Assembly (NCBI GenBank): GCA_017463615.1
Contig: JAFTOU010000027.1
Coordinates: forward strand, 186,001-250,000
Source of the DNA: Alistipes sp.
GTDB lineage: Bacteria > Bacteroidota > Bacteroidia > Bacteroidales > Rikenellaceae
DNA length: 64,000 nucleotides
Direction: 5' to 3'
The notes under the pieces were generated by a model, which had not been told where the DNA came from, searched no databases, and worked only from the letters and a program-made list of their open reading frames with translations. A program made the translations under genes and the position numbers. Positions 2,131 through 49,769 of the stretch are shown here, piece by piece (positions within the stretch are counted from its first letter, which is position 1; every line of letters starts with the position of its first letter).

Positions 2131-2259
2131 AATTTGTTGTCAAAAGGTAGTAGTTACAACGCTCGGCGCGATTGGTGACGATGGGCTGTACAAGGGCGTA
2201 CTGCCCATTGTCAGCATATCGCGTTAGCGGAAGTAAATGCTGCCTTTTCACAACAAATT
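2131..2259 (+). repeat. Structured 127-bp element, copy a (subfamily A)
   Basis: The termini AATTTGTTG and CAACAAATT are inverted repeats. The inner arms GACGATGGGC and GCCCATTGTC pair with one G-T, around the apical hairpin GTAC-n6-GTAC. The right end is one base from the TAA stop of the TauE/SafE gene. This copy carries the subfamily A blocks TACAACGCTCG on the left and GTTAGCGGAAGTA on the right. See the findings for the family comparison. Confidence 0.85.
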
Positions 2260-2260
2260 G

Positions 2261-3055
2261 TTAGTTGCAGACAGTACCCATCATCTGTGCAAATATATCA
2301 TGCAGTGAGATAAATCCCACCAAGTCGGCAAAACATATCAGGACTATAACTAAGGTAAAGCCCTTGATAAAGCCCTTACCGAGGTGCGATGCGTAGTGTG
2401 ATGCAAGGAACGAGCCGATGATATTTCCCACGCCGTGCGGAACTCCAAAGAGGTAGTCTATCTGTCCATTTATAATAAAGACGGCAAGCGAAAATGGCGT
2501 AGCGACGAAGATAACAAAGTTCTTTATCGCATTTGCCGTCATAATATCCATACGCATAGCCCAGAGGGTGATTGCGAGGATAAGGTAGCCGATGCCGATG
2601 TATATATATCCGCCATAGAAGCCGATGCCCAGGAAGAGCAGGTAGTGCCATGGCTTGATGTCAAGGTTATGTCCCTCCTTAATCTTTATACGGCTATCAA
2701 AGATAAGGTATAGCAGAATGACGACCAGAATAACGCCGAAGCATATCTTGAACACCCTATCGTCTATATGCGTAGCTACCAGCGAGCCGGCTATATTTCC
2801 GATAATCACCGGCACGGAGAGCATAAGTCCATGGCGGAGGTTAAACGCGCCCTTGCGCAGAAAGGTTATCGTGGCGGTAAGGTTCTGGAGAAATACGGCG
2901 ATACGGTTTGTACCGTTGGCGATAGTTATCGGCAGGCCGAGGGCTGTAAACATAGTTACAGTAACCACCGAGCCACCGCCCGCCAGCGTATTTATCGCCC
3001 CAACGATAATTCCCGAGATGACCAAAATTAGGGTTATGCTCAAATCCAACTCCAT
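2261..3055 (-). CDS. TauE/SafE-family sulfite exporter-like permease
   Basis: This 264-residue, very hydrophobic inner-membrane protein belongs to the TauE/SafE (formerly DUF81) family, whose members move sulfite, sulfonates or other organic anions. The family start is clear: an N-terminal helix followed by GAINTLAGGGSVVT, the glycine-rich turn typical of the group, then NGTNR. About eight membrane segments can be counted. The substrate cannot be read from sequence. The gene stands alone, with a structured repeat directly after its stop and a divergent S1-domain gene upstream. The start at 3055 is supported by the aligned N-terminus. Confidence 0.85.
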   Translation of the reverse strand: MELDLSITLILVISGIIVGAINTLAGGGSVVTVTMFTALGLPITIANGTNRIAVFLQNLTATITFLRKGAFNLRHGLMLSVPVIIGNIAGSLVATHIDDRVFKICFGVILVVILLYLIFDSRIKIKEGHNLDIKPWHYLLFLGIGFYGGYIYIGIGYLILAITLWAMRMDIMTANAIKNFVIFVATPFSLAVFIINGQIDYLFGVPHGVGNIIGSFLASHYASHLGKGFIKGFTLVIVLICFADLVGFISLHDIFAQMMGTVCN

Positions 3056-3125
3056 ATCTTTCCCACTTTTTCCTTTTTAAGAACTCAAAAATAGCAAAAT
3101 TTTCGGAAAGTTGCAATGTTTTATC

Positions 3126-3133
3126 TATTTTTG
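3126..3133 (+). promoter_or_regulatory. Bacteroidota -7 box for the 3174 gene
   Basis: TATTTTTG fits the TAnnTTTG -7 consensus of Bacteroidota sigma factor ABfA and sits 40 bp before the start of the S1-domain gene. No convincing -33 TTTG is seen at the right spacing, so this is tentative. Confidence 0.4.
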
Positions 3134-3173
3134 CACCAAATTAACGACAATATAGTAAAACCGATATAGCAAA

Positions 3174-4010
3174 ATGAAGGTTGGCGAAATACAGACACTA
3201 ACCGTAAGCCGTCTGTCGGACTACGGACTCTATCTTGCAGACGAGCAGGGCAACGAGGCGCTGCTTCCAAACCGCTATGTATCTCTGACGCAGAAGGTTG
3301 GCGACAGCGTGGAGGTGTTTATCTATCACGACTCAGAGGATAGAATCACCGCCACTACCGACAAGCCGACAATTACGGCAGGTCGCGTGGCGTGGCTCAA
3401 GGTGGTGGACAAGAATATCCACGGCGCATTTTTAGATTGGGGCATTGCGGGCAAGGACCTCTTTCTGCCAAACCGCAACCAGCAGGGTGGCATAGTTATT
3501 GGCAACCACTACCCCGTATATATGTATGTGGACGACATCACAGGTCGTTGCGTGGCGACAAACAAGCTGCGCGCCTATGTTAATAACGACGACATAGTGA
3601 CCGTAGACAAGGGTCAGCAGGTGGATATCCTCGTGGTCTCCGAGAGCCCTATAGGCTACCGCGTGATTGTAGAGAATCGCCACTGGGGCATGCTCTATAA
3701 GAACCAGATTTTCCGTCCTCTCTCGCTCGGTGAGCGCACGACAGCCTATGTTGTAAAGGTTACCGACGAGCGCCGCATAGACCTCTCGCTCCAGCGTCGC
3801 GGCTATGTGCAGGTGAAGGATAGCGCCGAACAGCTCTACGAGGCTATCGTAGCGGCAGGCGGCTCACTCGCCCTTACGGACAACAGTTCGCCAGAGCAGA
3901 TTCAAAGCACCCTGCAGATGAGCAAGAAGCTCTTTAAGCGCTCCCTGGGTGTACTTATGAGCCACAACCGCGTAACGGTAGACGAGAACGGAATAAAGAT
4001 TACGAAGTAA
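3174..4010 (+). CDS. CvfB/YitL-like S1-domain RNA-binding protein
   Basis: The 278-residue protein resembles the CvfB (YitL) family, which contains several S1-type OB folds followed by a C-terminal winged helix and binds RNA; in Firmicutes it affects virulence gene expression. S1-like stretches are recognisable at about residues 1-60 (VGEIQTLTVSRLSDYGLYL), 66-130 (with GAFLDWGIAGKDLFLP) and 145-205. The last 65 residues fit a winged helix (LTDNSSPEQIQSTLQMSKK). The stop overlaps the next start by one base (TAATG), implying translational coupling with the methyltransferase. The RNA target is unknown. Confidence 0.85.
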   Translation: MKVGEIQTLTVSRLSDYGLYLADEQGNEALLPNRYVSLTQKVGDSVEVFIYHDSEDRITATTDKPTITAGRVAWLKVVDKNIHGAFLDWGIAGKDLFLPNRNQQGGIVIGNHYPVYMYVDDITGRCVATNKLRAYVNNDDIVTVDKGQQVDILVVSESPIGYRVIVENRHWGMLYKNQIFRPLSLGERTTAYVVKVTDERRIDLSLQRRGYVQVKDSAEQLYEAIVAAGGSLALTDNSSPEQIQSTLQMSKKLFKRSLGVLMSHNRVTVDENGIKITK

Positions 4011-4774
4011 TGGCAAAGATTGCAACTGCCGAGAGAGTTTCGCGCGAGGCGTCAGACAACTATGTCTTTCAGCGCTCACTGCTCGCCTATCACCACGCCG
4101 CCACAATGATTAGTGGCGATGTACTGGAGATAGGCACAGGCACGGGCTATGGTATAGAGATTCTCGCACCACATTGCGACCGCTTCATCACGGTAGATAA
4201 GTTTCTTGACCCATCTGTCATGGTAGAGGCTCCCAACTGCGAGCGACTGCAGATGTGCGTTCCGCCACTGGGCTTTGAGAGCGGCAGCTTTGACTATGTG
4301 GTTAGCTTTCAGGTAATTGAGCATATCAAGAAGGATACAGACTTTGTCCGCGAGGTGGCTCGCGTATTGCGCCCGGGTGGTAAGTTTATCGTCTCTACGC
4401 CCAACGCCCCAATGTCGCTCACTCGCAACCCATGGCATATCAGAGAGTATACCGCCGAGCAGCTCCAAAATCTGCTAAGCATAGCCTTCAGCACCATCAC
4501 TAAGGGTGGCGTTACGGGCAACGAGAAGATTATGGAGTACTACGAGAAAAACCGCGAGGGGGTGCGCCGCATCACCCGCTTTGATATCCTTGATTTGCAG
4601 CACCGCCTGCCTCGCCAGCTGCTACAGATTCCGTACGACATCCTCAACCGCCTCAACCGTCGCCGCCTGCTCAAGCAGAATAACAACCTCACGACATCTA
4701 TCACAATGTCGGACTACGCAGTAAGCGACACTACCGACGGGGCATTTGACCTATTTTTCGTCGCAACAAAATAA
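4010..4774 (+). CDS. Class I SAM-dependent methyltransferase
   Basis: This 254-residue cytoplasmic enzyme has a Rossmann-type SAM-binding fold. Motif I, VLEIGTGTGYG, is at residues 38-48. An acidic residue follows in ITVDKF, then the post-I block SFQVIEHI and the motif LRPGGKFIVSTPN. The pattern is that of the Methyltransf_11/UbiG-like group acting on small molecules or lipids, and the substrate cannot be assigned. It starts inside the stop of the CvfB-like gene (TAATG) and is probably the second gene of a two-gene unit. The C-terminal 70 residues (residues 185-254) are outside the conserved fold and may help bind substrate. Confidence 0.85.
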   Translation: MAKIATAERVSREASDNYVFQRSLLAYHHAATMISGDVLEIGTGTGYGIEILAPHCDRFITVDKFLDPSVMVEAPNCERLQMCVPPLGFESGSFDYVVSFQVIEHIKKDTDFVREVARVLRPGGKFIVSTPNAPMSLTRNPWHIREYTAEQLQNLLSIAFSTITKGGVTGNEKIMEYYEKNREGVRRITRFDILDLQHRLPRQLLQIPYDILNRLNRRRLLKQNNNLTTSITMSDYAVSDTTDGAFDLFFVATK

Positions 4775-4779
4775 TCAGT

Positions 4780-4830
4780 TTTAACGATTATCATTAAACA
4801 CCAAAAATCGGTTTAATGTTTATCGTTAAA
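4780..4830. promoter_or_regulatory. 20-bp inverted repeat upstream of glnN
   Basis: The arms at 4780-4799 and 4811-4830 match at 18 of 20 positions when one is reverse-complemented (TTTAACGAT...ATTAAAC), with an 11-base spacer. It lies just after the methyltransferase stop and ends 23 bases before the -33 box of glnN. It could be a terminator for the upstream unit or, given its dyad symmetry next to a nitrogen-assimilation promoter, a regulator-binding site. The sequence alone does not decide. Confidence 0.6.
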
Positions 4831-4853
4831 CCATCGTAACTTTGGTGCGATTT

Positions 4854-4886
4854 TTTGCTATTATTTGAGAAAAATAACTACCTTTG
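4854..4886 (+). promoter_or_regulatory. glnN promoter (-33 TTTG, -7 TACCTTTG)
   Basis: TTTG at 4854-4857 and TACCTTTG at 4879-4886 are 21 bases apart, matching the Bacteroidota promoter consensus. The start codon is 17 bases beyond the -7 box, so the leader would be very short. Confidence 0.75.
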
Positions 4887-4902
4887 CAGAAAATCGTAAT
4901 AT

Positions 4903-7077
4903 ATGTCATTACTTCGTTTCAATATGCTTGAGCGTGCGCTTGAGCAGAGGGCGGTAGAGGTTACGCCGCCGAGCAACAATCCATCCGACTACTTTGGCGA
5001 GAAGGTCTTTGGGCGCAAGCAGATGCGCAAGTATCTGAACAAGCAGACCTTTGAGGCGCTGATTGCGACCATAGAGAACAACACCCCTCTAACTCAGGAG
5101 GTTGCCGACGCCGTAGCGGCGGGTATGCGTCAGTGGGCACTCAGCCACGGCGCAGACCACTACTGCCACTGGTTTCAGCCACTGACGGGCGGTACTGCCG
5201 AGAAGCACGACTCCTTTGCCGAGCCTGATGGCCAGGGCGGACTGTTAGAGGAGTTCTCGGGCAAGGTGCTCATACAGCAGGAGCCTGACGCCTCAAGTTT
5301 CCCAAGTGGCGGCATCCGCAACACCTTTGAGGCGCGCGGTTACTCGGCGTGGGACCCCACATCGCCAGCCTTTATCGTTGATACAACACTCTGCATCCCT
5401 ACCCTATTTATCGCCTACAATGGCGAGGCGCTGGACTACAAGACCCCACTGCTCCGCTCTATTCAGGCGGTGAACAAGGCAGCTACAGATGTCTGCCGAT
5501 ACTTTGACAAGAGCGTGGAGAGGGTATACTCCTACCTCGGTTGGGAGCAGGAGTATTTCCTTATAGACGACGCCCTCTGGTCGGCACGCCCCGACCTTGT
5601 GCAGACGGGTCGCACGCTGATGGGCCACGAGGCAGCGAAGAATCAGCAGCTGGACGACCACTACTTCGGCGCTATACCTTCGCGCGTGATTGCCTTTATG
5701 AAAGACCTTGAGTATGAGAGCCTTAAGCTCGGCATACCTCTCAAGACGCGCCACAACGAGGTTGCTCCAAATCAGTTTGAGCTTGCGCCTGTATATGAGG
5801 AGGCAAACCTTGCCAACGACCACAACCAGCTGCTCATTACCATAATGAATCAGGTAGCCAAGCGCCACCACTTCCGCGTGCTGCTGCACGAGAAGCCATT
5901 TAAGGGTATCAACGGCTCGGGTAAGCACAACAACTGGTCACTCGGAACAGATGCGGGTGTAAACCTGCTCCGTCCAGGCAAGACTGCCTTTGAGAATCTG
6001 CAGTTTATAACCTTCCTTGTCAATGTCATCGCCGCCGTACATAAGCACAATGGGCTGCTCAAGGCATCTGTAATGTCGGCAACAAACGAGCACCGTCTCG
6101 GCGCTGGCGAGGCACCTCCGGCGATTATATCTACATTCCTCGGCTCACAGATTTCGTCCGTGCTGGATAAGATTGAGAGTTCCAAGAGCGACGAGGATAT
6201 ACGCTTTGACTCAAAAAATATCTTCCGCATGAGCGGACTGAGCCAGATACCATCTCTGCTGCGCGACAATACCGACCGCAACCGCACATCGCCATTTGCA
6301 TTTACTGGTAACCGCTTTGAGTTCCGCGCTGTGGGCTCGTCGGACAACTGCGCCGAGGCTATTATTGTCATCAACACCGCCGTGGCGGAGCAGTTGGTTA
6401 GCTTCAAGCAGACCGTAGATGCTAAGATTGAGCGTGGCGAGAAGCGCGAAAGGGCGATATACGAGACCATCCGCGAGCTCATCAAGCAGAGCAAGCCTGT
6501 GCGCTTTGACGGCAACGGCTACTCGGACGAGTGGAAGGAGGAGGCTGCACGCCGTGGCCTTGACTGCCAGACATCCGCACCGCTCAACTTTGACCGCTAT
6601 ACCGACGAGCAGACCGTGCGTATGTTCGGCAATATGGGCGTATATAATAAGGTAGAGCTTGAGGCACGCGCCGAGATTAAGCGCGAGATGTATGTCAAGA
6701 AGATACAGATTGAGGCTCGCGTGCTTGGCGACCTTGTGATGAACCATATCGTACCTATCGCCTCAAAGTACGAGGGCGTGCTGCTGGATAAGGCTTGGAA
6801 GCTGCAGCAACTGGGTATGAGCTGGGCTACCGACCGTGAACTTATAGAGGATATCCAGAGTCGCACAGCGAAGATTCAGACACTTGTTGCCGAGATGATT
6901 GAGTGCCGCAAGCGTGCTAACCGCATAGAGGATATGCGCCAGAAGGCTATCGCCTACCACGACACCGTCGCCGTATTCTTTGACACCATCCGCACCGAGA
7001 TTGATAAACTCGAGGAGGTCGTAGACGACCAAATCTGGACCCTGCCAAAGTACCGCGAGATACTGTTTATCAAGTAG
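4903..7077 (+). CDS. glnN: Type III glutamine synthetase (GSIII)
   Basis: GSIII makes glutamine from glutamate, ammonia and ATP and is the main ammonia-assimilating synthetase of many Bacteroidales. The 724-residue length is typical of the family and far longer than GSI or GSII. Diagnostic stretches include PLTGGTAEKHDSF, the Glu-rich metal-site region LEEFSGKVLIQQEPDASSFP, and NGSGKHNNWSLGTD, which contains the conserved ATP/glutamate-site residues. The start follows a strong promoter by only 17 bases and is preceded by an inverted repeat, which suggests transcriptional control by nitrogen supply. No glnK or amtB lies nearby in the window. Confidence 0.97.
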   Translation: MSLLRFNMLERALEQRAVEVTPPSNNPSDYFGEKVFGRKQMRKYLNKQTFEALIATIENNTPLTQEVADAVAAGMRQWALSHGADHYCHWFQPLTGGTAEKHDSFAEPDGQGGLLEEFSGKVLIQQEPDASSFPSGGIRNTFEARGYSAWDPTSPAFIVDTTLCIPTLFIAYNGEALDYKTPLLRSIQAVNKAATDVCRYFDKSVERVYSYLGWEQEYFLIDDALWSARPDLVQTGRTLMGHEAAKNQQLDDHYFGAIPSRVIAFMKDLEYESLKLGIPLKTRHNEVAPNQFELAPVYEEANLANDHNQLLITIMNQVAKRHHFRVLLHEKPFKGINGSGKHNNWSLGTDAGVNLLRPGKTAFENLQFITFLVNVIAAVHKHNGLLKASVMSATNEHRLGAGEAPPAIISTFLGSQISSVLDKIESSKSDEDIRFDSKNIFRMSGLSQIPSLLRDNTDRNRTSPFAFTGNRFEFRAVGSSDNCAEAIIVINTAVAEQLVSFKQTVDAKIERGEKRERAIYETIRELIKQSKPVRFDGNGYSDEWKEEAARRGLDCQTSAPLNFDRYTDEQTVRMFGNMGVYNKVELEARAEIKREMYVKKIQIEARVLGDLVMNHIVPIASKYEGVLLDKAWKLQQLGMSWATDRELIEDIQSRTAKIQTLVAEMIECRKRANRIEDMRQKAIAYHDTVAVFFDTIRTEIDKLEEVVDDQIWTLPKYREILFIK

Positions 7078-7256
7078 CCGTTGGCTGTTGGCTATTAGCT
7101 TTTTTAGAGGTGTCGCTGCGCGACAATATTTATAGGGTGCGAGGAGCGCCCTATTTTTATTACGGCTTATACTGTCATCATTCGGCTTGCACCGTCGTCA
7201 CCTCATCGCACCATTTTAGCGTCATTCGGCTTGCACCGTCATCACCTCGTCGTACC
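7078..7256. repeat. Gap with repeats C, E and two tandem F units
   Basis: The 306-base gap after glnN holds no gene. Directly after the stop comes repeat C (GCCGTTGGCTGTTGGC), then a hairpin of family E (GTGTCGC-TGCGCGACA followed by TTTATAGGGTGC). Next come two tandem copies of a unit of about 44 bases (CGGCTTGCACCGTC...CACCATTTT), each ending in a sequence like the left terminus of the 127-bp element. The third such terminus opens element copy b. This looks like layered insertion at one site. Confidence 0.7.
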
Positions 7257-7384
7257 ATTTTGGTGTCAGAGTGGTGCATTTGCGGTGCATCGTGAAAAAG
7301 AGCAGTCGCGGATAGTACTAAAGCGTACAGCCGCGACTGCTATTTAAGGGATGTGCCGCAAATGCGCCACTATCACACCAAAAT
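7257..7384 (+). repeat. Structured 127-bp element, copy b (subfamily B)
   Basis: The termini ATTTTGGTG and CACCAAAAT pair exactly. The outer arm AGTGGTGCATTTGCGG pairs with CCGCAAATGCGCCACT through a single G-T, and the inner arms AGCAGTCGCGG and CCGCGACTGCT pair exactly around GTAC-n6-GTAC. The last base is shared with the TAA stop of the zinc-ribbon gene. Confidence 0.88.
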
Positions 7385-8133
7385 TACTCCTCGGTAGGGA
7401 CTAAAATACGACCACAATACTCACACACAATCAGCTTCTTGCCGAGGCTAACCTCTACCTGGCGCTGTGGTGGGATGCGGTTGAAGCAGCCAGAGCAAGC
7501 GTCGCGCTGGATGGTTACCACTGCAAGGCCATTGCGCACCTTGCTACGAATACGGTCGTAAGCGGCGAGCAGGCGGTCGTCAATCTTCTTCTTTGCAACC
7601 TCTGCCTGAGCCATCAGAGACTCCACCTGGTCAGCGGTCTCGCTCTCAATATTTGCGAGCTCAGTACGCTTAGCCTCAAGGTCTACATTACGCTCGGCAA
7701 TCTGAGCCTCGGTCTGCTCTACCTTAGCCTTCTTAGCCTTGATAGCTGCAGCATACTCGCGCAGGTGCTTCTCAGCGAGGCGAATCTCAAGCTCCTGATA
7801 GTCAATCTCCTTGGCGATAGCGTCAAACTCGCGGTTATTGCGGACATTTGCCTGCTGCTCGTTGTACTTTGCAATAAGCATATTTGCCTCGTCAATCTGA
7901 CGGCGACGCTGACGAGTCAGAGCACCCAGCTCCTCAATCTCGGCATTGATACCCTCTACACGAGTTCTCAGACCTGCGATCTCGTCGTCCAGATCCTGCA
8001 CCTCATCAGGAAGCTCACCCTTTACCTTGTTGATCTCGTCAATCTGCGAATCAATCTTCTGCAACTCGTAAAGAGCCATAATCTTCTCGTACATCGAGTA
8101 ATCTACCTCTGCGGTTTTCTTTGTTGTAGCCAT
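7384..8133 (-). CDS. Coiled-coil protein with C4 zinc ribbon (DUF164-type)
   Basis: The 249-residue protein is a long antiparallel coiled coil (about residues 20-190, rich in E, K, A and Q heptads) ending in a C4 zinc ribbon. Cysteine pairs CSGC and CEYC are separated by the typical beta-hairpin, with the sequence IPPQRQVE between. This is the architecture of the zf-RING_7/DUF164 family, found beside Nif3-like genes in many bacteria, and here it follows the Nif3 gene by 54 bases. Nucleic-acid binding is a plausible role, but no function is established from the sequence. The stop overlaps the end of a structured repeat. Confidence 0.85.
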   Translation of the reverse strand: MATTKKTAEVDYSMYEKIMALYELQKIDSQIDEINKVKGELPDEVQDLDDEIAGLRTRVEGINAEIEELGALTRQRRRQIDEANMLIAKYNEQQANVRNNREFDAIAKEIDYQELEIRLAEKHLREYAAAIKAKKAKVEQTEAQIAERNVDLEAKRTELANIESETADQVESLMAQAEVAKKKIDDRLLAAYDRIRSKVRNGLAVVTIQRDACSGCFNRIPPQRQVEVSLGKKLIVCEYCGRILVPTEE

Positions 8134-8187
8134 ATATTATTATTTTTTAATATTCTCTAACGCCTTAACACGCTAACTTCCAAAGCA

Positions 8188-8985
8188 TTACAACGAGTAA
8201 TACATTGGGTTTTCTGATTTCGCGCTCTTATAGAGCGCAAAGGTACTAATTTTTTTTGAGAAATCCGCCAAAATATTGAATAATAAATCAATTGCGCAAT
8301 ATTCGCTCTCAAAATGACCCACATCGCAGAGGGTAAAACGCCCATCTGGCAGGTAATATTGGTTATATTTCAGGTCGGCGGTTACATATATATCGCATCC
8401 CGACGCTGCCGCCTGCTCAATGAGCGAGCCACCCGCGCCCGTGCATATTGCTACGCGCTGAACGCTATCTTTCACCACCTTGCTATGGCGAATAGCCTTG
8501 CAACCGAGCGTTGTGCGCAGCAGGGCGAAGAAGGAGTTTGTACCCATCGGCTCTGGCAGGGCGCCGACAACGCCGAAGCCCACAGAGGCATCTGTGCGCG
8601 ACGGCTCAAGGGTCTGCATATCAGTGATGCCCAGCATCTGACCCAAGTGCCAACTCATACCTCCCTTTACGGAGTCAAGGTTTGTGTGACAAGCATAGAG
8701 GGCAATACTGTGCTTTATAGCACTCTCCACGCAACGCTCTACCACCGAGGCGGAGTTGAAGCGCTTGAGGGGGCTAAAGACAATAGGATGGTGGGTAATA
8801 ATCATACCGCAACCCAGCTCCAGCGCCTCCTCAATAACCTGCTCGGTAACATCTACCGCCAGCAGCACACCACCGCGGAGCTCGTCATCCAATCGGCCGA
8901 CAATAAGACCTGCATTGTCGTAGCTCTCCTGCAGCGAGAGTGGCGCAAAGGCCTCTATACAATCTGTTATCTCTCTGATTTTCAT
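8188..8985 (-). CDS. Nif3-like dinuclear metal centre protein (YbgI/YqfO family)
   Basis: The 265-residue protein belongs to the Nif3 family, widespread and fold-wise a metal-dependent hydrolase sometimes annotated as GTP cyclohydrolase I type 2; its physiological role is unsettled. Metal-ligand motifs are visible: THHP near residue 70, HTNLD near 105 and the C-terminal DVGHFESE. I chose the ATG at 8983-8985 (MKIREITDCIEAFAPLSLQE), the canonical N-terminus, rather than an open frame running 89 codons further upstream through the MerR gene. It lies 4 bases after the MerR stop, in one operon with the zinc-ribbon gene. Confidence 0.92.
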   Translation of the reverse strand: MKIREITDCIEAFAPLSLQESYDNAGLIVGRLDDELRGGVLLAVDVTEQVIEEALELGCGMIITHHPIVFSPLKRFNSASVVERCVESAIKHSIALYACHTNLDSVKGGMSWHLGQMLGITDMQTLEPSRTDASVGFGVVGALPEPMGTNSFFALLRTTLGCKAIRHSKVVKDSVQRVAICTGAGGSLIEQAAASGCDIYVTADLKYNQYYLPDGRFTLCDVGHFESEYCAIDLLFNILADFSKKISTFALYKSAKSENPMYYSL

Positions 8986-8989
8986 AGCA

Positions 8990-9451
8990 CTACCATTCAA
9001 AAAGTGTCTGCTCGCGATATGCAGGCTTTGGCTGTGGCTCTGGCTCTGGCTCGGCCTGTTCAACCACCGCAGGGACTGGCTCAGATGGTACGGCTGCAGC
9101 TGCCTGCTCGCGCTCGCTCTGCTCGTCCAACGAATCGCGCACAGCCACGAGCATAGAGCGCAGCGACTGCAGACGCTCCAGCAGCTCCATATCGGCACTA
9201 CCCTCAGCCTCCTCCGAGCGGTCACCACGCAGAGCGCGCTTTGCACCCTCAAGGGTCATGCCGCACTCCTTGACATAGTGGTAGATGCGCTTGAGAGTCT
9301 CAATATCTGACGGCGAGAAGAGGCGGTTGCCCTTCTTGTTTCTATGGGGCTTGAGGGATGGAAATTGTGTGCCCCAGTAGCGAATCAACGAGGCATTGAC
9401 ATCAAACATCTCTGCCACCTCGCCCATTGTGTAGTAAATCTTGTCACTCAT
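8990..9451 (-). CDS. MerR-family transcriptional regulator
   Basis: The 153-residue protein has an N-terminal MerR winged helix-turn-helix (residues 4-75: YTMGEVAEMFDVNASLIRYW, then GNRLFSPSDIETLKRI). After it comes a helical segment with LLERLQSLRSMLVAVRDSL and a low-complexity tail rich in E, P and A. There are no clustered cysteines of the metal-sensing kind, so the inducer is unknown. The same type of MerR protein next to Nif3 and an RNA methylase is common in Bacteroidales, and it may act globally rather than on its neighbours. It is 2 bases downstream of the RsmF-like gene. Confidence 0.88.
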   Translation of the reverse strand: MSDKIYYTMGEVAEMFDVNASLIRYWGTQFPSLKPHRNKKGNRLFSPSDIETLKRIYHYVKECGMTLEGAKRALRGDRSEEAEGSADMELLERLQSLRSMLVAVRDSLDEQSEREQAAAAVPSEPVPAVVEQAEPEPEPQPKPAYREQTLFEW

Positions 9452-9453
9452 AT

Positions 9454-10821
9454 CTATAAGTTATTTATCTTCAACGAATTAGGATAGTTGTTATTCACGC
9501 GGTTGCCTATGCGCTTGACAAAACCGAGCGCGTAGCCCTCGCAGCTGATAAGGTTTATACCCTCCGTAAACTGCTGCGCCGAAATATCGTGCTTACGCAG
9601 GTACTCAAGCGCCGTAGCCTGCTCTACCTCAACAGTCGGCACAACATCGCCATTGAGCCATACAGACTGCGAGAGCGACCACTCAGGCTTGAGCTTGCCC
9701 TTGAATATCTGTCCCATCTCCACGCCCGAGTAGATTACCGTGAGGTTATTCGCCAGCGCCTTTATCTGCTCGTAGTACTCCGCAGGGAGGGCGTAGTAGC
9801 TATCTGCCACCATCGCAAAGCGCAACTGCTCGGGGTTTGCGACCCAGCGCTGCAGCTCCTTCACCGCATCTTTCGGTGCATCTACAACAATCTTCTTGCG
9901 CGCCTTTGGCGTTACGCTACGACCTCCAATATCCGCAGCCTTGCGAGCCACAGCAACGAAAAATCCCTCGCTTACGACCCTATGTGGATAGAACTTAAAG
10001 CACTGAAAGTCACCTATCTTGCTGCACTCTACGCCCCACTGCTCCGGCACCTCAATCTCCGCTGCGGGAGCTATCTGCTCGCCCCAGAGCTCTATCATCT
10101 GGCGGACAACACCCTCATCCTCAGTGGTGTTGAAGGTGCAGGTGCTGTATATCAATGTTCCACCCGCCCTGAGGCTCTTCCACGCCTGCTCAAGGATAGA
10201 TATCTGGCGTGCAGCACACATATCTACACTCTGGACAGTCCACTCCGTGCGGGCAACCTCCTCCTTGCGGAACATACCCTCACCCGAACATGGAGCATCT
10301 ACGGCAACAACATCAAACCAACTCTCAAAGGCGGCAATGTGCTGTGGGTCGTTGTTCGTCACAACAACATTTCCCAAGCCCCACTTGCGGATGTTGTCGG
10401 CAAGGATGTTGGCACGGTTGCGCACATACTCATTCGCCACAACCAGCCCGCGACTACCTACAACCGAGGCGTAGAGGGTACTCTTACCACCCGGGGCAGC
10501 GCACATATCCAATATCTTACCGCTATCAACCCCCTCGCTACGCAGGATGTGGGAGATAAACTGCGACCCCGCCTCCTGAACATAGTACGCCCCCGCCGCA
10601 AAGGGGATATGGAGCGTAAACTGCGGTCGCTGAGCAAGATAACGCCCACTCTCCGACCACGGCACAGTCTCTCCCCACTCGCCACCGCGCCACTTGTCGC
10701 CATTCAGACGCACCGACACAGGCGACTGACCATCCAGCGCCGCAAAGAGCTGCTCCGCCTGAGCATCCCCCAACTGGCTGCGCATCGCCGCAACAAAATC
10801 TGATGGTAGAGGTGTGTTCAC
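9454..10821 (-). CDS. RsmF-like rRNA cytosine-C5 methyltransferase
   Basis: The 455-residue protein is a NOL1/NOP2/Sun-family m5C methyltransferase of the RsmF type. The SAM motif is LDMCAAPGGKSTLYA. Two cysteine motifs carry the catalytic pair: DAPCSGEGMFRKE (general, product release) and YSTCTFN (nucleophile). The C-terminal third matches the extra RNA-binding module of RsmF/YebU (KHDISAQQF, SCEGYALGFVKRIGNRVNNNYP). In E. coli the homologue modifies C1407 of 16S rRNA; the site here is inferred by homology only. It is the first gene of the unit continuing with MerR, Nif3 and the zinc-ribbon protein. Confidence 0.92.
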   Translation of the reverse strand: MNTPLPSDFVAAMRSQLGDAQAEQLFAALDGQSPVSVRLNGDKWRGGEWGETVPWSESGRYLAQRPQFTLHIPFAAGAYYVQEAGSQFISHILRSEGVDSGKILDMCAAPGGKSTLYASVVGSRGLVVANEYVRNRANILADNIRKWGLGNVVVTNNDPQHIAAFESWFDVVAVDAPCSGEGMFRKEEVARTEWTVQSVDMCAARQISILEQAWKSLRAGGTLIYSTCTFNTTEDEGVVRQMIELWGEQIAPAAEIEVPEQWGVECSKIGDFQCFKFYPHRVVSEGFFVAVARKAADIGGRSVTPKARKKIVVDAPKDAVKELQRWVANPEQLRFAMVADSYYALPAEYYEQIKALANNLTVIYSGVEMGQIFKGKLKPEWSLSQSVWLNGDVVPTVEVEQATALEYLRKHDISAQQFTEGINLISCEGYALGFVKRIGNRVNNNYPNSLKINNL

Positions 10822-10881
10822 TACTATTGAATTTTATATCTTTTTTGCGCTACTCATTTATCCACCCATTTTGGGCTAACC

Positions 10882-10940
10882 CGTCAAGCAAGTCTATTCT
10901 AATTAGGCGGCTCGCCTAATTAGAATAGACTTGCTTGACG
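10882..10940. repeat. Perfect 28-bp inverted repeat covering the kinase stop codon
   Basis: The left arm 10882-10909 and right arm 10913-10940 are exact reverse complements (28 of 28) with a 3-base spacer. The right arm encodes the last residues (QASLF) and stop of the deoxynucleoside kinase; the left arm is a non-coding mirror copy. There is no U-tract, so it is not a classical terminator, although the RNA would fold into a very stable hairpin. Confidence 0.9.
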
Positions 10941-11555
10941 CACCGCCGGATGCTCCGCATGTATCTCATCCAGTCGCATGTAGAGCGAATCAAGCACCTT
11001 GATATTCTCTACGAAGTCGGTGTTATCCTTATCGATGATAAAGACCTCGCCGTCGTAGTTGCTCACCCACTCGTCGTAGCGGTCGTTCAGGCGACGGAGG
11101 TAGTCAATATCTATATTCTGCTCGTACTCCCTGCCGCGCTTGCGAATCTGGCGCACAAGGGTGTCGATGCTGGACTTGAGGTATATCAGCAGGTCGGGCT
11201 TCGGAATAAGGTCCGTAGAGATATCAAAGAGCTTCATATAGGTGCCAAAATCACGCCCCGACATCAGCCCCATCTGGTGCAGGTTACCCGCAAAGATGTG
11301 CGCATCCTCGTAGATTGTGCGGTCCTGAAAGACATTCTGCGAGCCATCCGAGAGCATATCTATCGTCTGGCGAATACGACTTGCGAGGAAGTGCACCTGA
11401 AACTGGAACGCCCAGCGGTTCATATCCTCGTAGAAATCAGAGATGTATGGGTTGTCCACATCCTCGTAGTAGGCTTTAGCACCGTAGTGCTTTGTTAGTA
11501 TCTCGGTCAGCGTAGTCTTACCACTGCCGATATTACCTGCAATTGCGATATACAT
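10920..11555 (-). CDS. Deoxynucleoside kinase (dNK family)
   Basis: The 211-residue enzyme phosphorylates salvaged deoxynucleosides. The P-loop GNIGSGKTT is at residues 7-15. The conserved DRT of the dNK family follows in VFQDRTIYEDAHIFA, and the lid-type arginines occur in LVRQIRKRGREYE. This matches the deoxyadenosine/deoxyguanosine kinase branch of bacteria, but base specificity cannot be fixed from sequence. The gene is separate from its neighbours. Its last codons lie inside a perfect 28-bp palindrome, so the C-terminus (QASLF) may be a by-product of that duplication. Confidence 0.92.
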   Translation of the reverse strand: MYIAIAGNIGSGKTTLTEILTKHYGAKAYYEDVDNPYISDFYEDMNRWAFQFQVHFLASRIRQTIDMLSDGSQNVFQDRTIYEDAHIFAGNLHQMGLMSGRDFGTYMKLFDISTDLIPKPDLLIYLKSSIDTLVRQIRKRGREYEQNIDIDYLRRLNDRYDEWVSNYDGEVFIIDKDNTDFVENIKVLDSLYMRLDEIHAEHPAVRQASLF

Positions 11556-11565
11556 ATCTTTGGCT

Positions 11566-11670
11566 ATTGACTGTTAGCCATTGGCTCGCTTTCAGCGACC
11601 CTTCCTCCTCGCGGCTCGGCAAAGTCTGCAAGCAGTCTCTGCTCTCGCTCCGCAGCGTCGGTTGGCTTTT
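11566..11670. repeat. Repeat B with C flanks, copy 1
   Basis: A G+C-rich block of about 85 bases carries CGACCCTTCCTCCTCGCGGC and CTCTCGCTCCGCAGCGTCGG. It is framed by repeat C units (GCCATTGGC, GGTTGGC). It recurs at 41.8, 49.4 and 52.9 kb with few changes. No open frame is conserved between copies. This copy has the divergent segment GCTTTCAGCGAC at its start. Confidence 0.8.
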
Positions 11671-11708
11671 ATATTGTTTGTAATTTATTTCTATTTACAC
11701 TTGCCTCC

Positions 11709-11835
11709 ATTTTGCGTCAGAAGGCGGTAGATACGACGCTCGCCTTGAGCGACGGCGATGGGTTGTACTAATGCGTACTACCCATTGCAGGAGCGAGAGG
11801 TAGCGAAAGTAGGTATCCGCCTTATCACGCAAAAT
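11709..11835 (+). repeat. Structured 127-bp element, copy c (subfamily A)
   Basis: The termini ATTTTGCG and CGCAAAAT pair. The outer arm AAGGCGG pairs with CCGCCTT, then ATAC with GTAT after a three-base TAG bulge. The inner arms GCGATGGGT and ACCCATTGC pair with one G-T around GTAC-n6-GTAC. The final T is the last base of the trkA stop (TAA, read on the other strand). Confidence 0.87.
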
Positions 11836-13172
11836 TAGTTAAAGTAGTAACCTATGTCGGATATCGCTGACGGCATTGCAAACAGCACTACCCTATCATA
11901 GGCATTTATCTGCATATTGCTGACGGCGATAAAGACCTTGTCTCCGCGCACGATACCGCCGATGATAACATCGTCTGGAAGCCCCATCTCGCCGATGGTA
12001 GACTTTGTAGCGGGCGAGTTTGGCTTGACAATAAACTCCAGCACCTCAGCATCGCTACCAGTAAGGCACTTGATAGCAAGCACATCGGTAGACATCGTAA
12101 AGCGGAAGATATTAGAGGCGGTGACTATCTTCTTATTTATAATAGTATCAATACCCACCGAGTCGGCAATCTTGATATAGTTCATATTCTCCACCTCGGC
12201 AATCACGCGCTTAACGCCCATACGCTTAGCCAGCATAGCGGTAAGGATATTGGTCTCGCTACGACCCGTAACGGCAACGAAGGCGTCCATATTCGCCAGT
12301 CCCTCCTCCATCATAGCCTCCGTATCGCGGCCATCCTGATGGATGATAAGCGTGCGCTCAAGCATCTCGGCGAGGCTATATGCCTTATCGGCATTGTAGT
12401 CTATCAGCTTGATATTAACCTCGTCCTGCAGCTCCTTGGCAATCTGAATACCGATGCGAGAGCCACCCAGAATCATCATATTGTTGATATCCACGCTGCT
12501 CTTGCCCGACAGAGCCATAACCTCAGCAACGGCATCGTGGCGCGAGATAGCGTAGACCATATCGCCCACCATGTATGTATCGGAAGATTTCGGAATAATA
12601 GTCTGACCATCGCGCATAATAGCCACCGTACGATAGCGCAGCGGCTGCTCCTCGTCAAAGCCAGCGATAGAGGCGCCAATGAGCGACGAGTTAGGCTCCA
12701 GACGGAATACCACAAGCGAGAGCTTACCGCCCGAGAAGTCCACAAACTCGGTAGTAGCCGAGTGGCCGAGCAGGTTGATAACCTCCTCCGCCGCAATACG
12801 CTCGGGATAGAGCAGGTAGTCGATGCCCATATCAATGAACATCTCCTTGTTGTTCGGCTCTAAGTACTCAAGGTTGTCAATGCGGGCAATGGCCTTCTTA
12901 GCACCCAGCTGCTTGGCCATAATTGCCGAGAGGACATTGTCGTTCTCAATAGAGTCCACAGCGATATAGAGGTCGCACTTACGCACCGAGGCCTTACGCA
13001 GCACCGCAAAGGTGGTAGCATCGCCCTCAAGGGTAATAACATCGGCCAGCGTGCTCAGCTCCGCAAGCAGCTTAGCATCCTGGTCAATGACCGTAATATC
13101 GTGCCCATTACCGCTGAGCATCTTGGCAAGATGATTGCCTATCTCCTCAACGCCTGAAATAACTATTCTCAT
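11835..13172 (-). CDS. trkA: TrkA, regulatory subunit of the Trk/Ktr-type K+ uptake system
   Basis: This 445-residue cytosolic protein gates a TrkH-type potassium channel. It is built from two tandem RCK units, each an NAD-binding Rossmann half plus a TrkA_C half. The first begins MRIVISGVEEIGNHLAKML with VIDQD ending the second strand, and the second begins near residue 229 (NNMMILGGSRIGIQIAKEL). The first glycine motif is degenerate (GVEEIG), as in other bacteroidal TrkA proteins. No trkH partner is in the window. In other bacteria K+ uptake RCK proteins are controlled by c-di-AMP, and a c-di-AMP synthase (cdaA) lies 4.5 kb away. Confidence 0.94.
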   Translation of the reverse strand: MRIVISGVEEIGNHLAKMLSGNGHDITVIDQDAKLLAELSTLADVITLEGDATTFAVLRKASVRKCDLYIAVDSIENDNVLSAIMAKQLGAKKAIARIDNLEYLEPNNKEMFIDMGIDYLLYPERIAAEEVINLLGHSATTEFVDFSGGKLSLVVFRLEPNSSLIGASIAGFDEEQPLRYRTVAIMRDGQTIIPKSSDTYMVGDMVYAISRHDAVAEVMALSGKSSVDINNMMILGGSRIGIQIAKELQDEVNIKLIDYNADKAYSLAEMLERTLIIHQDGRDTEAMMEEGLANMDAFVAVTGRSETNILTAMLAKRMGVKRVIAEVENMNYIKIADSVGIDTIINKKIVTASNIFRFTMSTDVLAIKCLTGSDAEVLEFIVKPNSPATKSTIGEMGLPDDVIIGGIVRGDKVFIAVSNMQINAYDRVVLFAMPSAISDIGYYFN

Positions 13173-13240
13173 GGGATGTTCTGTAAATTAGTAAAATATT
13201 TTTTTGCGCCTGGGTAGATTCTATTTAGAGTCGCCCATTC

Positions 13241-13271
13241 TTGCAAAATTTCAGACAAATTTATAAATTTG
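13241..13271 (+). promoter_or_regulatory. Promoter for the 13340 gene
   Basis: TTG at 13241-13243 and TAAATTTG at 13264-13271, 20 bases apart, match the Bacteroidota -33/-7 pattern. They point toward the small membrane protein gene that starts 68 bases downstream. Confidence 0.5.
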
Positions 13272-13339
13272 TAGCGAGAAAACAAAGGATTACCCCCTTT
13301 TGATTGAAAATAAATTTAAGTAAATTTTGTAACACGCTT

Positions 13340-13597
13340 ATGCCCAACTGGTTAGTAGTTATACTTTTCGCCATCGGAGCGGTCGCTTTCTTTGGCGTTG
13401 CACTATCCCTGACACTCATTTTCAAGGGTCATCACATAGAGTCTGAAATCTCCACAAATCCAAACATGAAGAAGCTCGGCATAAAGTGTGCCGTGCAGGA
13501 GACACGCGAGGATATGGCCGCCGAGAGTTGCGACGACGACAGCGTCTGCACAGGCAACTGCGCAGGTTGCGACATAGACCACTCAGCCGCAAAATAG
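13340..13597 (+). CDS. Small single-pass membrane protein with Cys-rich tail
   Basis: The 85-residue protein has one transmembrane helix at about residues 4-29 (WLVVILFAIGAVAFFGVALS) and a polar tail. In the tail the segment MKKLGIKCAVQETRED resembles a small Bacteroidetes membrane-protein family of unknown role. The tail ends with five spaced cysteines including CTGNCAGC, which could bind a metal. I place the start at ATG 13340 because the only upstream in-frame start is a TTG at 13304 adding a polar N-terminus. It precedes the exported 381-residue protein gene by 57 bases. No function can be assigned. Confidence 0.7.
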   Translation: MPNWLVVILFAIGAVAFFGVALSLTLIFKGHHIESEISTNPNMKKLGIKCAVQETREDMAAESCDDDSVCTGNCAGCDIDHSAAK

Positions 13598-13654
13598 GGG
13601 ACAAAAATAACCCCGTCCCGTCTTTTATAGCATATAAAACCTACTTAAAAACTT

Positions 13655-14800: not shown

Positions 14801-14817
14801 CGCAGGCTACGCAGTAC

Positions 14818-14968
14818 TGCCCGCTTTTTGAAAAAAGCAGGGCATGCAAAAACTTTTGGCAAAACTTCGTTTTGCTTCTATGCGCTGCGGAAATAGTCTG
14901 TTGTCTACGACAATACAAAATCAGAGAGATACATCACTTTCAAGCCAGCTTGAGTGAGTATCTCTCTG
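14818..14968. other. Three consecutive hairpins after the exported-protein gene
   Basis: The 362-base gap between 14800 and 15163 contains no gene. Hairpins lie at about 14818-14843 (TGCCCGCTTTTT against AAAAAAGCAGGGCA), 14861-14876 (GCAAAAC-TTC-GTTTTGC) and 14922-14968 (CAGAGAGATA...TATCTCTCTG, followed by CTTTTA). One or more of them probably terminates the + strand gene. Repeat C and element copy d fill the rest. Confidence 0.65.
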
Positions 14969-15045
14969 CTTTTAGTATACTTGCGGATACCAGTCTATTT
15001 CCGAATAGAAGTTCTACTGCGTCAGCCAGCCAATGGCCAATAGCC

Positions 15046-15174
15046 AATTTGTTGTCAGAGTGCGCCAGATACGGTGCATCGTGCAGAAAATCTGTCGCGG
15101 ATAGTACTAACAGCGTACAGCCGCGACAGATTTTTAAGGGATGTGCCGTAGGTGGCGTGCTATCACAACAAAAC
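15046..15174 (+). repeat. Structured 127-bp element, copy d (subfamily B)
   Basis: The left terminus AATTTGTTG pairs with CAACAAAA at the right. The inner arms AAAATCTGTCGCGG and CCGCGACAGATTTT match exactly around the GTAC hairpin. The right end lies inside the coding frame of the EEP gene: it supplies the last two leucine codons and the TGA stop. Confidence 0.86.
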
Positions 15175-18652: not shown

Positions 18653-18780
18653 ATTTTGTTGTCAAAAGTGCGTAGTTGCGGGGCATCGTGAAAAATATTA
18701 GGCTCGGATAGTACTAAAACGTACAGCCGAGCCTAATATTTAAGGGATGTGCCGCAAATGCGTGCTTTTCACAACAAAAT
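18653..18780 (+). repeat. Structured 127-bp element, copy e (subfamily B)
   Basis: The termini ATTTTGTTG and CAACAAAAT pair exactly. The inner arms (AATATTAGGCTCGG with CCGAGCCTAATATT) pair exactly around GTAC-n6-GTAC. The outer arm AAAAGTGCG pairs with CGTGCTTTT through two G-T pairs. The TAG stop of the S1/P1 nuclease begins at the very next base. Confidence 0.88.
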
Positions 18781-26032: not shown

Positions 26033-26159
26033 AATTTGTTGTCAGAACAGTGTAAATACAACGCTCGCCGATATTTGAGCCGATGGGTTGTACTTTGGCG
26101 TACTACCCATTGGCGAGAATGAGGTAGCGGCAGTAGTTATGCTGTTATCACAACAAATT
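26033..26159 (+). repeat. Structured 127-bp element, copy f (subfamily A)
   Basis: The termini AATTTGTTG and CAACAAATT are exact inverted repeats, and the inner arms GCCGATGGGT and ACCCATTGGC pair with one G-T around GTAC-n6-GTAC. The right terminus overlaps the araD TAA stop by two bases. Confidence 0.87.
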
Positions 26160-35944: not shown

Positions 35945-36060
35945 ATTAAGGACAATTAAAGATAATTAAAGGTTACTAATGGTCGCGTTCCGCGACGCTA
36001 CGCAGTACAGAATTGCGTCACCCTTAATAGCCCTTAATCTCCCTTAATAGCCTTTAATAT
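35945..36060. repeat. Repeat D, copy 2
   Basis: ATTAAGG-type heptamers on the left and CCTTAAT-type heptamers on the right frame the core GGTTACTAATGGTCGCG and its partner CGCGACGCTACGCAG. The layout is as in copy 1, with an extra GAATTGCGTCA in the middle. Confidence 0.82.
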
Positions 36061-36166: not shown

Positions 36167-36293
36167 ATTTTGTCGTCAAAAGTGTGTAGTTGCGGTGCAT
36201 CGTGCAAAAAGTAGCATCGGATAGTACTAAAGCGTACAGCCGATGCTACTTTTTAAGGGATGTGCCGCAAATGCGTGCTTTTCACGGCAAAAT
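36167..36293 (+). repeat. Structured 127-bp element, copy g (subfamily B)
   Basis: The termini ATTTTGTCG and CGGCAAAAT pair with one G-T. The inner arms AAAAAGTAGCATCGG and CCGATGCTACTTTTT match exactly around GTAC-n6-GTAC, and the outer arms pair with several G-T pairs. The right end codes for the last three residues (ILP) and TGA of the AlkD-like gene. Confidence 0.88.
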
Positions 36294-41807: not shown

Positions 41808-42006
41808 ACTGTTGGCTGTTGGCTCGTCTACGACGACCCTTCCTCCTCGCGGCTCGGCATAGTGTGCAAGCTCCTTCTGCTCTCGCTCCGCAGCGTCGGT
41901 TAGCTTTTAGCCATTGGCCATTGGCTTTTCAGAGGTATCGCCTGCGGCGATGAGTGTTAAAGGGTGCAAGTGCCAACCTATTTTGTCGTCAAAAGTGCAC
42001 CGACCT
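41808..42006. repeat. Repeats C-B-C-E, copy 2, plus an F-like left terminus
   Basis: The 372-base gap holds no gene. Repeat C (TTGGCTGTTGGC) leads into repeat B (CGACCCTTCCTCCTCGCGGC ... CGCAGCGTCGG), then C again and the E hairpin GGTATCGCCTGCGGCGATGAG. Next is a lone element left terminus (ATTTTGTCGTCAAAAGTGCACC), which precedes element h. Confidence 0.75.
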
Positions 42007-42133
42007 ATTTTATCGTCAAAAGGCGGTAGTAGGTGTGCATCGCGAAGATAGTCTGGATGGGTTGTACTTAAGCGTACTACCCATTCAGGCTATTGAGGGA
42101 TGTGCAGCTAATGCCGCCTTATCACGATAAAAT
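42007..42133 (+). repeat. Structured 127-bp element, copy h (subfamily B)
   Basis: The termini ATTTTATCG and CGATAAAAT pair exactly, using a T/A pair where most copies have G/C. The outer arm AAGGCGG pairs with CCGCCTT, and the inner arms ATAGTCTGGATGGGT and ACCCATTCAGGCTAT pair with two G-T pairs around GTAC-n6-GTAC. It overlaps the TAA stop of the GLUG/SGNH gene by one base. Confidence 0.88.
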
Positions 42134-45928: not shown

Positions 45929-46142
45929 ATGGCTTTTGGCTATCAGCTTTTTAGAGGTATTTTATTAAAGGTCATTAAAGAGAATTAAGGGTTACTAATG
46001 GTCGCGTTCCGCGACGCTACGCCGTACGAAATTTGCGCAACCCTTAATAACCCTTAATAGCCTTTAATATACAGCCACGGCTTATTCCGTCGCTCATTAT
46101 TTGCACGATTTTATAGTCAGAGTGGTGCCAATAAGCAATACC
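45929..46142. repeat. Gap with repeat C, repeat D copy 3 and an element left terminus
   Basis: In the 413-base gap after the 43-aa gene I see no further gene. Repeat C (GGCTTTTGGCTATCAGC) is followed by repeat D (45963-46071: ATTAAAGG and ATTAAGG units, core GGTTACTAATGGTCGCG, then CCCTTAAT units). A solitary element left terminus (ATTTTATAGTCAGAGTGG, about 46110) precedes element i. Confidence 0.75.
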
Positions 46143-46274
46143 CAATTTGACGTCAGAACGCGGTAGATACAACGCTCGGCACAAAAAACAGCGAAGGGCT
46201 GTACTAAGTCGTACTGCCCTTTGCTGTTTATTTGTGTTAGCGGAAGTAGGTATCCGCGTTATCACGTCAAATTG
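46143..46274 (+). repeat. Structured 127-bp element, copy i (subfamily A)
   Basis: The termini CAATTTGACG and CGTCAAATTG pair over 10 bases. The outer arm AACGCGG pairs with CCGCGTT, and the inner arms AAACAGCGAAGGGC and GCCCTTTGCTGTTT pair with one G-T around GTAC-n6-GTAC. It ends two bases before the secDF stop. Confidence 0.88.
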
Positions 46275-49219: not shown

Positions 49220-49290
49220 TTGAGTTAAAAATTAAAATTATTTGTTTTTGTTCTCTTTCGTTTTGTTTCGTTACTATACACAAAAGCACG

Positions 49291-49320
49291 CAAAGATAAT
49301 AAAAATTTTTCAATTCACAA
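49291..49320 (-). promoter_or_regulatory. secDF promoter
   Basis: On the - strand TTG (49318-49320) and TATCTTTG (49291-49298) are 19 bases apart; the leader is about 65 bases. Confidence 0.68.
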
Positions 49321-49368
49321 TCTTCCGCGCGCTAATTTCAACAATATAGCATAAAAAGCCCCTATTTA

Positions 49369-49617
49369 TTGGGCTATTGGCCATTTGCCATTGGCTCGTC
49401 TACGACGACCCTTCCTCCTCGCGGCTCGGCATAGTGAGCAGGCTCCCTCTGCTCTCGCTCCGCAGCGTCGGTTAGCTATTGGCTATATCAAGGTATCGCT
49501 ACGCGATAGTGTTTAGGGGTGCAGTTTGTACTGCTGGTTTTTGTAGCGCCCTATAAACACTGTCGACTTGCCGACACCGCTAAAAAGCCAATGGCTAATA
49601 GCTAACGGCTAATGTCC
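49369..49617. repeat. Repeats C-B-C-E, copy 3, followed by inverted E and C
   Basis: The 525-base gap between secDF and the Ca2+ ATPase has no gene. It contains C-B-C, the E hairpin GGTATCGC-TACGCGATA with GTGTTTAGGGGTGC, then a mirrored GCGCCCTATAAACACTGTCG, the stem-loop GTCGACTTGCCGAC, and C units (GCCAATGGC, GCTAACGGC). The two E halves can pair with each other, so the whole block is one composite palindrome. Confidence 0.75.
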
Positions 49618-49643
49618 ATTTTGGCGCGCTATCACGCTAAAAT
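49618..49643 (+). repeat. 26-base deletion derivative of the structured element
   Basis: ATTTTGGCG and CGCTAAAAT, the two termini of an element, are separated by only CGCTATCA, retaining the TATCAC block typical of right ends. It directly abuts the left end of element j, so the younger copy was added exactly at the older copy's right end. Confidence 0.7.
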
Positions 49644-49769
49644 AATTTGTCGTCAAAATGCGGTAGTAGGCGCGCATCGTGAAATATCCCCGGATGGGTT
49701 GTACTTGAGCGTACTACCCATTCGGGGATATGAGGGATGTGCGGCTAATGCCGTATTTTCACGGCAAAT
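49644..49769 (+). repeat. Structured 127-bp element, copy j (subfamily B)
   Basis: The termini ATTTGTCG and CGGCAAAT pair with one G-T. The inner arms ATATCCCCGGATGGGT and ACCCATTCGGGGATAT pair with a single G-T around GTAC-n6-GTAC. The right 25 bases are read in frame by the Ca2+ ATPase gene. Confidence 0.88.

Follow-up and report, generated by a model that had tools for sequence, protein, structure and literature searches.

The DNA considered here is a stretch of 64,000 nucleotides from Alistipes sp. (GCA_017463615.1, contig JAFTOU010000027.1, positions 186,001-250,000 of the forward strand), hereafter called the window. Ten copies of an intergenic hairpin element lie in the window, kilobases apart, beside housekeeping-type genes and without any cassette array. 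An earlier note, made from the letters alone, had described ten copies with a shared architecture, and all ten are present as described:

2131..2259, + strand: hairpin element 1 (TACAACGCTC type), next to the stop of gene 2261-; the site is empty in three relatives
7257..7384, + strand: hairpin element 2 (GCATCG type), abutting the stop of gene 7384-
11709..11835, + strand: hairpin element 3, abutting the stop of the TrkA-like gene 11835-; element-free in one relative read (site 29)
15046..15173, + strand: hairpin element 4, overlapping the stop of gene 15163-
18653..18780, + strand: hairpin element 5, abutting the stop of gene 18781-
26033..26159, + strand: hairpin element 6, abutting the stop of gene 26158-; element-free in one relative read (site 8)
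36167..36293, + strand: hairpin element 7, overlapping the stop of gene 36282-
42007..42133, + strand: hairpin element 8, abutting the stop of gene 42133-; element-free in two relatives (site 0)
46143..46274, + strand: hairpin element 9, 2 bases from the stop of the SecDF gene 46277-; element-free in two relatives (site 11)
49644..49769, + strand: hairpin element 10, overlapping the 3' end of gene 49745-

A covariance model built from the ten window copies was used to search the genome and returned at least 148 matches in 2.38 Mb. This total is a lower bound (150 candidates were scored) and includes three weak matches with scores of 35.8-41.5 bits, of which one is a fragment. The stretches used for the further analyses contain 99 of the copies, while 49 lie outside them. 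Nine of the 99 lack the regular end motif and were omitted, which leaves the set of 90 own copies that underlies the counts for neighbours, fold bias, terminal tetrads and run tails, target duplication, remnants and end position. The core is 124-130 bases long in 89 of these 90 copies and 117 bases long in one, and its internal mismatches are conserved. The motif CGTC occurs within the first 14 bases of 65/90 copies and GTAG within the first 30 bases of 43/90. As had been claimed, the terminal pairs vary and stay complementary, the commonest being ATCG/CGAT (18 copies), GTTG/CAAC (18), GGCG/CGCC (11) and AGCG/CGCT (10). The tip GTAC-n6-GTAC holds as the general architecture, but some copies have ATAC/GTAT instead. 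Moreover, the modules mix: two second-stem types and four tip-core types were seen in seven combinations.

Around the variable tetrads, the termini are partly conserved in the own genome, with ATTT on the left, outermost, and GTCA/TCAC inside. In close relatives, even these terminal parts change and the outer arms are quite different. The partly conserved terminal inverted repeats, a size of about 130 bp, the high copy number and the intergenic location would fit an ordinary miniature inverted-repeat transposable element (MITE) of a double-strand (DDE) transposon. However, the variable complementary tetrads inside the termini and the divergent outer arms of the close relatives speak against it, and no target duplication was detected in the 90 copies at 3, 4, 5, 6 or 8 bases with offsets of 0-3 (counts of 0-2 vs shuffled means of 0-1.7). 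Moreover, neither one orientation in 138/142 copies nor a preference for G-T pairs, both described below, is expected of a DDE element, and we regard a MITE as very improbable. The earlier note had named a match to a known MITE or to a family of repetitive extragenic palindromic sequences (REPs) with conserved termini as evidence against its proposal. No such match emerged (no Y1 transposase in the genus and no target duplication), but the partial conservation of the termini in the own genome goes some way in that direction.

It could be shown that the identity of the hairpin resides in its fold far more than in its sequence. Five copies folded as the + strand gave z-scores of -8.3 to -13.4, and none of 200 shuffled sequences was equally stable. 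In an alignment of 150 rows, which was fitted to the covariance model's own structure and includes 14 antisense re-readings, 96.2% of the cells are paired as compared to 77.0% after shuffling, and the covariation score is 0.516 as compared to 0.175; structures slid along the same alignment reached at most 0.122. For a test on a tree of 134 distinct copies, the 14 antisense rows were taken out. The genome-wide covariation, which had been set beforehand as a check, turned out to be strong: 21 of the 32 pairs show an excess of double changes on the same branch, as opposed to 18 of 1984 non-partner pairs. In total, 264 same-branch double changes were counted, whereas 37.7 were expected, and 239 of them keep the pair.

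The second line of evidence concerns the strand. G-T pairs outnumber A-C pairs in every one of the 90 own copies (435 vs 55 in total), with a scoring that handles either strand identically. Among the pairs of the model, again without the antisense rows, G-T and A-C pairs number 278 and 23 in the 96 own rows, and 93 and 3 in the 40 rows taken from relatives. Thus, the G-T excess that had been counted by hand is confirmed, while the accompanying statement that A-C pairs do not occur must be corrected, because they are rare and not absent. G-T pairs make up about 9% of the aligned pairs. In two copies folded both ways, the + sense was the stronger one (-74.3 vs -56.6 and -80.3 vs -71.5 kcal/mol), and across the 90 copies the + sense folds better in all of them, with a mean of -69.4 vs -56.6 kcal/mol. 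Strand-biased G-T pairs and strand-biased folding would not be expected of inert duplex palindromes. No match at the gathering score of Rfam was obtained in the window. The single Rfam match at E<=1 in 2100-19000, SNORD71, lies at 8512-8600 and outside the elements; at E<=0.5, in seven loci of relatives, MIR1862 overlaps a distant copy in L091, far below its threshold (26.9 bits vs 84). Covariation, G-T excess and the lack of an Rfam match above threshold support the earlier proposal that the + strand is under selection as RNA or as single-stranded DNA.

The hairpins occupy a characteristic position relative to genes. The right-hand gene lies on the opposite strand in 79/90 copies, vs 49% of 210 intergenic regions in copy-free stretches (p ~1e-14); the latter are free of listed copies and still contain 7 left-arm motifs in 380 kb. 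In 65/90 own copies, the stop codon of this opposite gene falls at -12..+8 of the element end, with exact abutment in 31 copies. The stop is located within the right arm of the hairpin in 13/90 copies, where the TATCAC of the arm can supply a TGA in the sense of the gene. Among the 38 best-scoring copies of relatives with loci returned, 34 have the end of an opposite-strand open reading frame (ORF) nearby, in all 34 cases within -10..+9. For comparison, 70 of 2000 random positions have such an ORF end within -12..+8; the counts for random positions and for relatives use a simpler ORF rule than the 65/90 of the own copies. In 50/90 copies, the gene on the left is directed against the + sense, so that no + gene reads into them.

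This position raises the question of transcription termination, as the hairpin could be a terminator or 3'-end module of the opposite-strand neighbour that is retained for ending transcription. The stop-codon position fits such a role, and plain intrinsic terminators are found by eye close to the stop at 5/10 element-free orthologous sites of relatives (sites 0, 1, 9, 11 and 13). Furthermore, some inner arms carry run tails (A-run or T-run), namely 41/90 on the left, 47/90 on the right and 26 on both sides, which corresponds to a T-run on the + strand in 47/90 copies and on the - strand in 41/90. However, the mRNA of the neighbour carries the other strand, which has the weaker fold in 90/90 copies, and roughly every second copy is without a run tail; the idea of a universal terminator was rejected on this ground. 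A terminator scan of window positions 1-20000, which is a weak test because it considers only loops of 3-8 bases, lists none inside the five elements there. A two-way terminator would also give no orientation lock. Taken together, a terminator is a distinctly unlikely explanation for the family.

The orientation lock is a property of whole contigs. On contigs with at least two copies, 138/142 own copies follow the majority orientation of their contig, whereas random orientation yields a mean of 88.6 and a maximum of 106 in 5000 draws. On one contig of 402 kb, all 32 copies are co-oriented. Among the matches listed for relatives (150 of 265), the agreement amounts to 29/30, 83/88 and 13/14, the last sample being small enough for its value to be reached by random draws. 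The lock does not reflect gene orientation because coding is mixed: genes lie on both strands, and 45% of the coding is on the element strand in the window and 20 stretches without listed copies. The natural reading is that the orientation is set by the direction of replication. The element strand has a negative GC skew in 15/21 stretches and would accordingly be the lagging-sense strand, i.e. the template of the leading strand.

The skew bears on a purely mutational origin of the covariation as well. According to this explanation, template switching within the hairpin repeatedly restores one arm to the complement of the other (quasipalindrome correction), and the common orientation arose because copies whose strong strand was on the lagging template have been deleted. 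The outer arms, which are locus-specific and yet complementary, would be accounted for. The skew also indicates a C-rich element strand, so that the lagging template probably does not carry the strand with the better fold. However, quasipalindrome correction predicts perfect pairs, in contrast to the hundreds of G-T and the few A-C pairs observed, and a mutation bias on a C-rich strand, judged from the skew, would favour A-C over G-T. The core length is also kept, and other families show a comparable framework. We therefore consider a mutational origin quite improbable.

A stronger competitor is a structured RNA, in which + sense transcripts would fold and function, for instance, as antisense RNAs of the gene ends or as the template of a reverse-transcribed element resembling a short interspersed nuclear element (SINE). 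The proportion of G-T pairs and the scarcity of A-C pairs are as in RNA, and the internal mismatches are conserved. The own genome contains one reverse transcriptase match, an ORF of 472 residues (L190, 1162-2580) on the 3.5-kb contig C49. This match is real, but it resides on a separate contig and could not be linked to the hairpins. Moreover, the left neighbour also points left in 50/90 copies, which leaves no + gene to read through, and an orientation that extends over whole contigs is not explained by an RNA role alone. A structured RNA is thus possible but rather unlikely.

The comparison with relatives revealed that the hairpins differ in presence and identity from genome to genome. G028, G027 and G036 have no hairpin at the site of element 1, and two convergent genes directly adjoin each other there. 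Of the 42 places in G027 and G028 that were matched to the 3' ends of 22 own genes, 30 could be read. At the 13 sites read in both genomes, an element is present at the gene end in both (6) or in neither (7), and never in one only; one of the seven empty sites is doubtful (possible paralogues) and one of the six occupied sites (L216) was assessed by eye only. Nine element sites common to G027 and G028, three of them added to the previous six, were compared by eye: six carry clearly different elements and three the same element. Four of the six pairs of different elements end at the same gene base and two within about 10 bases, again by eye. Furthermore, a left-arm remnant without a right end is located just left of 10/90 own copies, one of the ten being a full neighbour by eye, whereas a lone right end was observed once among the 90 copies. 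New copies therefore seem to replace the gene-side portion of older ones. Within the window, a truncated left arm of an older copy lies immediately left of element 8 (42007..42133), and two such arms, one of which appears in the remnant scan, lie left of element 5 (18653..18780).

Other repeats were noticed as well. A second family of about 100 bp, 85-96% identical, occurs in the window at 11571-11670, 41809-41908, 49381-49480 and 52915-53014. In G027 and G028, look-alike copies of this repeat are inserted inside a hairpin element, one of them flanked by an apparent 5-base duplication (AACGC). A third intergenic repeat with TTAAGGG/CCCTTAA strings lies left of hairpins at 18389-18488, 35915-36014 and 45934-46033, and its strings CTACGCA or TAATGGTCG were found in the left flanks of 30/90 hairpin copies. 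The window also contains a direct repeat of 300 bases with 86% identity (19119-19418 and 19949-20248).

The distribution of the hairpins is narrow. In a set of 61 genomes, 23 including the own genome are carriers, all of one genus; thus 22 of 36 other genus members have hairpins, while none was found in the 24 genomes of other families. Under strict filters, an order-wide sample gave matches in 4/295 genomes, the own included, with no copies in two genomes of another genus of the same family, and a phylum-wide sample gave matches in 1/296 genomes, namely the own. The three genomes of other families with copies have 9 matches combined at E<=0.01; these E-values are rough, and the weakest match (G148) may be due to chance. 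The sequences of the other-family elements are very different from those of the own copies. Three of the four kinds compared nevertheless retain a common framework, in which the left arm resembles TGTCAGAA..AGATnC and the right arm GCAGATn..TTATnACA, with a capped inner hairpin. For 7 of these 9 matches the position was assessed, and an opposite-strand ORF end lies at -12..+1 in 5/7, one of the five being a short ORF only; in L270, the ORF at the element end is only 119 codons long, and a larger gene follows at a distance of 300 bases. One of the ten elements gave no match in phages and plasmids, and one tip pattern gave none in viral contigs. The host is a gut bacterium of the Rikenellaceae resembling Alistipes and known from a metagenome-assembled genome: the nearest relatives of its SecDF protein come from Alistipes and from metagenome-assembled genomes of Rikenellaceae, with at most 78% amino-acid identity. 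A general literature search yielded nothing relevant, and among the papers listed for Alistipes, Bacteroidetes and structured RNAs, none describes the hairpin family in its title or in the opening part of its abstract.

Two unusual settings of the hairpin were encountered among the relatives. In G182, tandem copies with a period of about 149 bp are located at contig ends (L267, 1-340, and L269), flanked by what we take to be a thrA-like gene on one side and a phosphoglycerate-mutase-like gene on the other. In three more distant members of the genus, with one such copy each, the hairpin is found where an ORF with the N-terminus MKRYGQVIG starts, on the same strand as this gene (L204, 2127-2260; L205, 11956-12089; L206, 11243-11374). 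The ORF presumably resembles L-rhamnose mutarotase, and the hairpin at its start is possibly a vertically kept copy.

Orientation lock, stop-codon position, and the presence differences and exchange at gene ends are new with respect to the earlier note, which had left the choice between RNA and single-stranded DNA. We think that the common orientation, the placement at stop codons and the swapping of elements at one and the same gene end tilt this choice to single-stranded DNA, and the folded form is more likely DNA than RNA. With a probability of roughly 0.5, the hairpin is a non-coding, spreading repeat of about 125-130 bases whose + strand folds as single-stranded DNA at or near the replication fork, and whose placement and exchange at gene 3' ends are linked to the fork. 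On this reading, a replication-linked process would put and swap copies at gene 3' ends, all facing the same way with respect to fork movement, and an incoming copy would tend to replace the gene-side part of the older one. If the polarity is right, the base of the hairpin on the leading-strand template would be a stall point for a polymerase that is finishing the gene. The leading strand stalled there might switch to another copy, or a hairpin-recognising enzyme might act. Switching at the hairpin base would explain the fixed right boundary, the lost right half of older copies and the constant orientation. We infer that the exchange takes place at the fork, and the hairpins are likely to be mainly selfish.

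Several observations weigh against a fork-linked, single-stranded DNA element. Independent insertions into a hot spot could account for the different elements at one gene end, and 25/90 own copies have no opposite-strand stop codon at their right end. The observed frequency of G-U pairs would be typical of RNA as well. Transposition through single strands is generally assumed to take place on the lagging-strand template, and judged by the skew, the element strand does not look exposed there. The polarity suggested by rpoB agrees in G016 (C1) and disagrees in G027 (C32); in four other genomes, rpoB gave either no match (two) or a match on a contig without listed copies (two). In view of one agreeing and one disagreeing contig, the replication polarity of the element strand is only likely, and the replication origin was not located. 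Finally, no mobilising enzyme was identified: the Y1 transposase PF01797 is found in 0/41 genus genomes by a search that was positive in 5/14 control genomes, and no search was aimed at DDE or other transposases or at integron integrases.

Tentatively, and somewhat against the odds, the hairpins may even represent a new class of elements: nearly sequence-free hairpins that are selected in single-stranded form, locked to a replication strand, located at opposite-strand stops, and swapped at their site by template switching coupled to the fork or by a hairpin recombinase, without a Y1 transposase. The letters of the hairpin vary widely while fold, strand, orientation and gene-end position stay. 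The family could thus serve as a test bed for studying how single-strand hairpins survive, spread and are exchanged at forks, and why the 3' ends of genes are targeted. Moreover, as the orientation stays constant on contigs as long as 402 kb, it could mark the direction of replication in metagenome bins. If the folded form is RNA, the hairpins would constitute a large new RNA family of gut Bacteroidales.

Several known systems resemble the hairpins in part. The folds of attC sites are conserved more than their sequences, and their terminal structure is variable. Integron attC sites are located at the 3' end of a gene and act as a folded bottom strand (PMC7923331), and they have this geometry in common with the hairpins. 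However, the hairpins have no R boxes (GTTRRRY / RYYYAAC at the ends in 0/90 copies) and lie outside any cassette array in the window. Group IIC introns are far larger ribozymes with their own reverse transcriptase. Their targets are hairpins located 3' of genes, among them terminators and attC sites (PMC7923331). The window has no Rfam match at the gathering score, and the RNA sense would probably be the opposite strand. The candidate structured RNA HMP2_4205 from gut Bacteroidetes is a palindrome of 132 bp (PMC8040213). Being similar in length and from the same phylum, it may or may not belong to the hairpin family.

A likeness also exists to the palindromic repeats of other bacteria. REPs are high-copy intergenic palindromes, mostly downstream of genes, whose termini can give flanking ORFs a stop codon (PMC3733652). 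The hairpins are likewise high-copy, intergenic and downstream of genes, and for REPINs a single-strand transposition intermediate has been suggested (PMC3116915). The CGTC in the first 14 bases of 65/90 hairpins adds to the likeness. However, a REP comprises 20-40 bases with a constant unpaired GTAG or CGTC tag, whereas the hairpins have 124-130 bases and no constant unpaired tag, and in contrast to REPs with their REP-associated tyrosine transposase (RAYT), the hairpins occur in a genus with the Y1 transposase in none of 41 genomes. One orientation per contig and covarying arms also set the hairpins apart from REPs. Enterobacterial repetitive intergenic consensus (ERIC) sequences are intergenic imperfect palindromes of about 127 bases with one consensus sequence, whereas the arms of the hairpins differ freely and keep their pairing. 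The best reading of the hairpin is a REP- or ERIC-like but distinct repeat that acts as single-stranded DNA at the replication fork.

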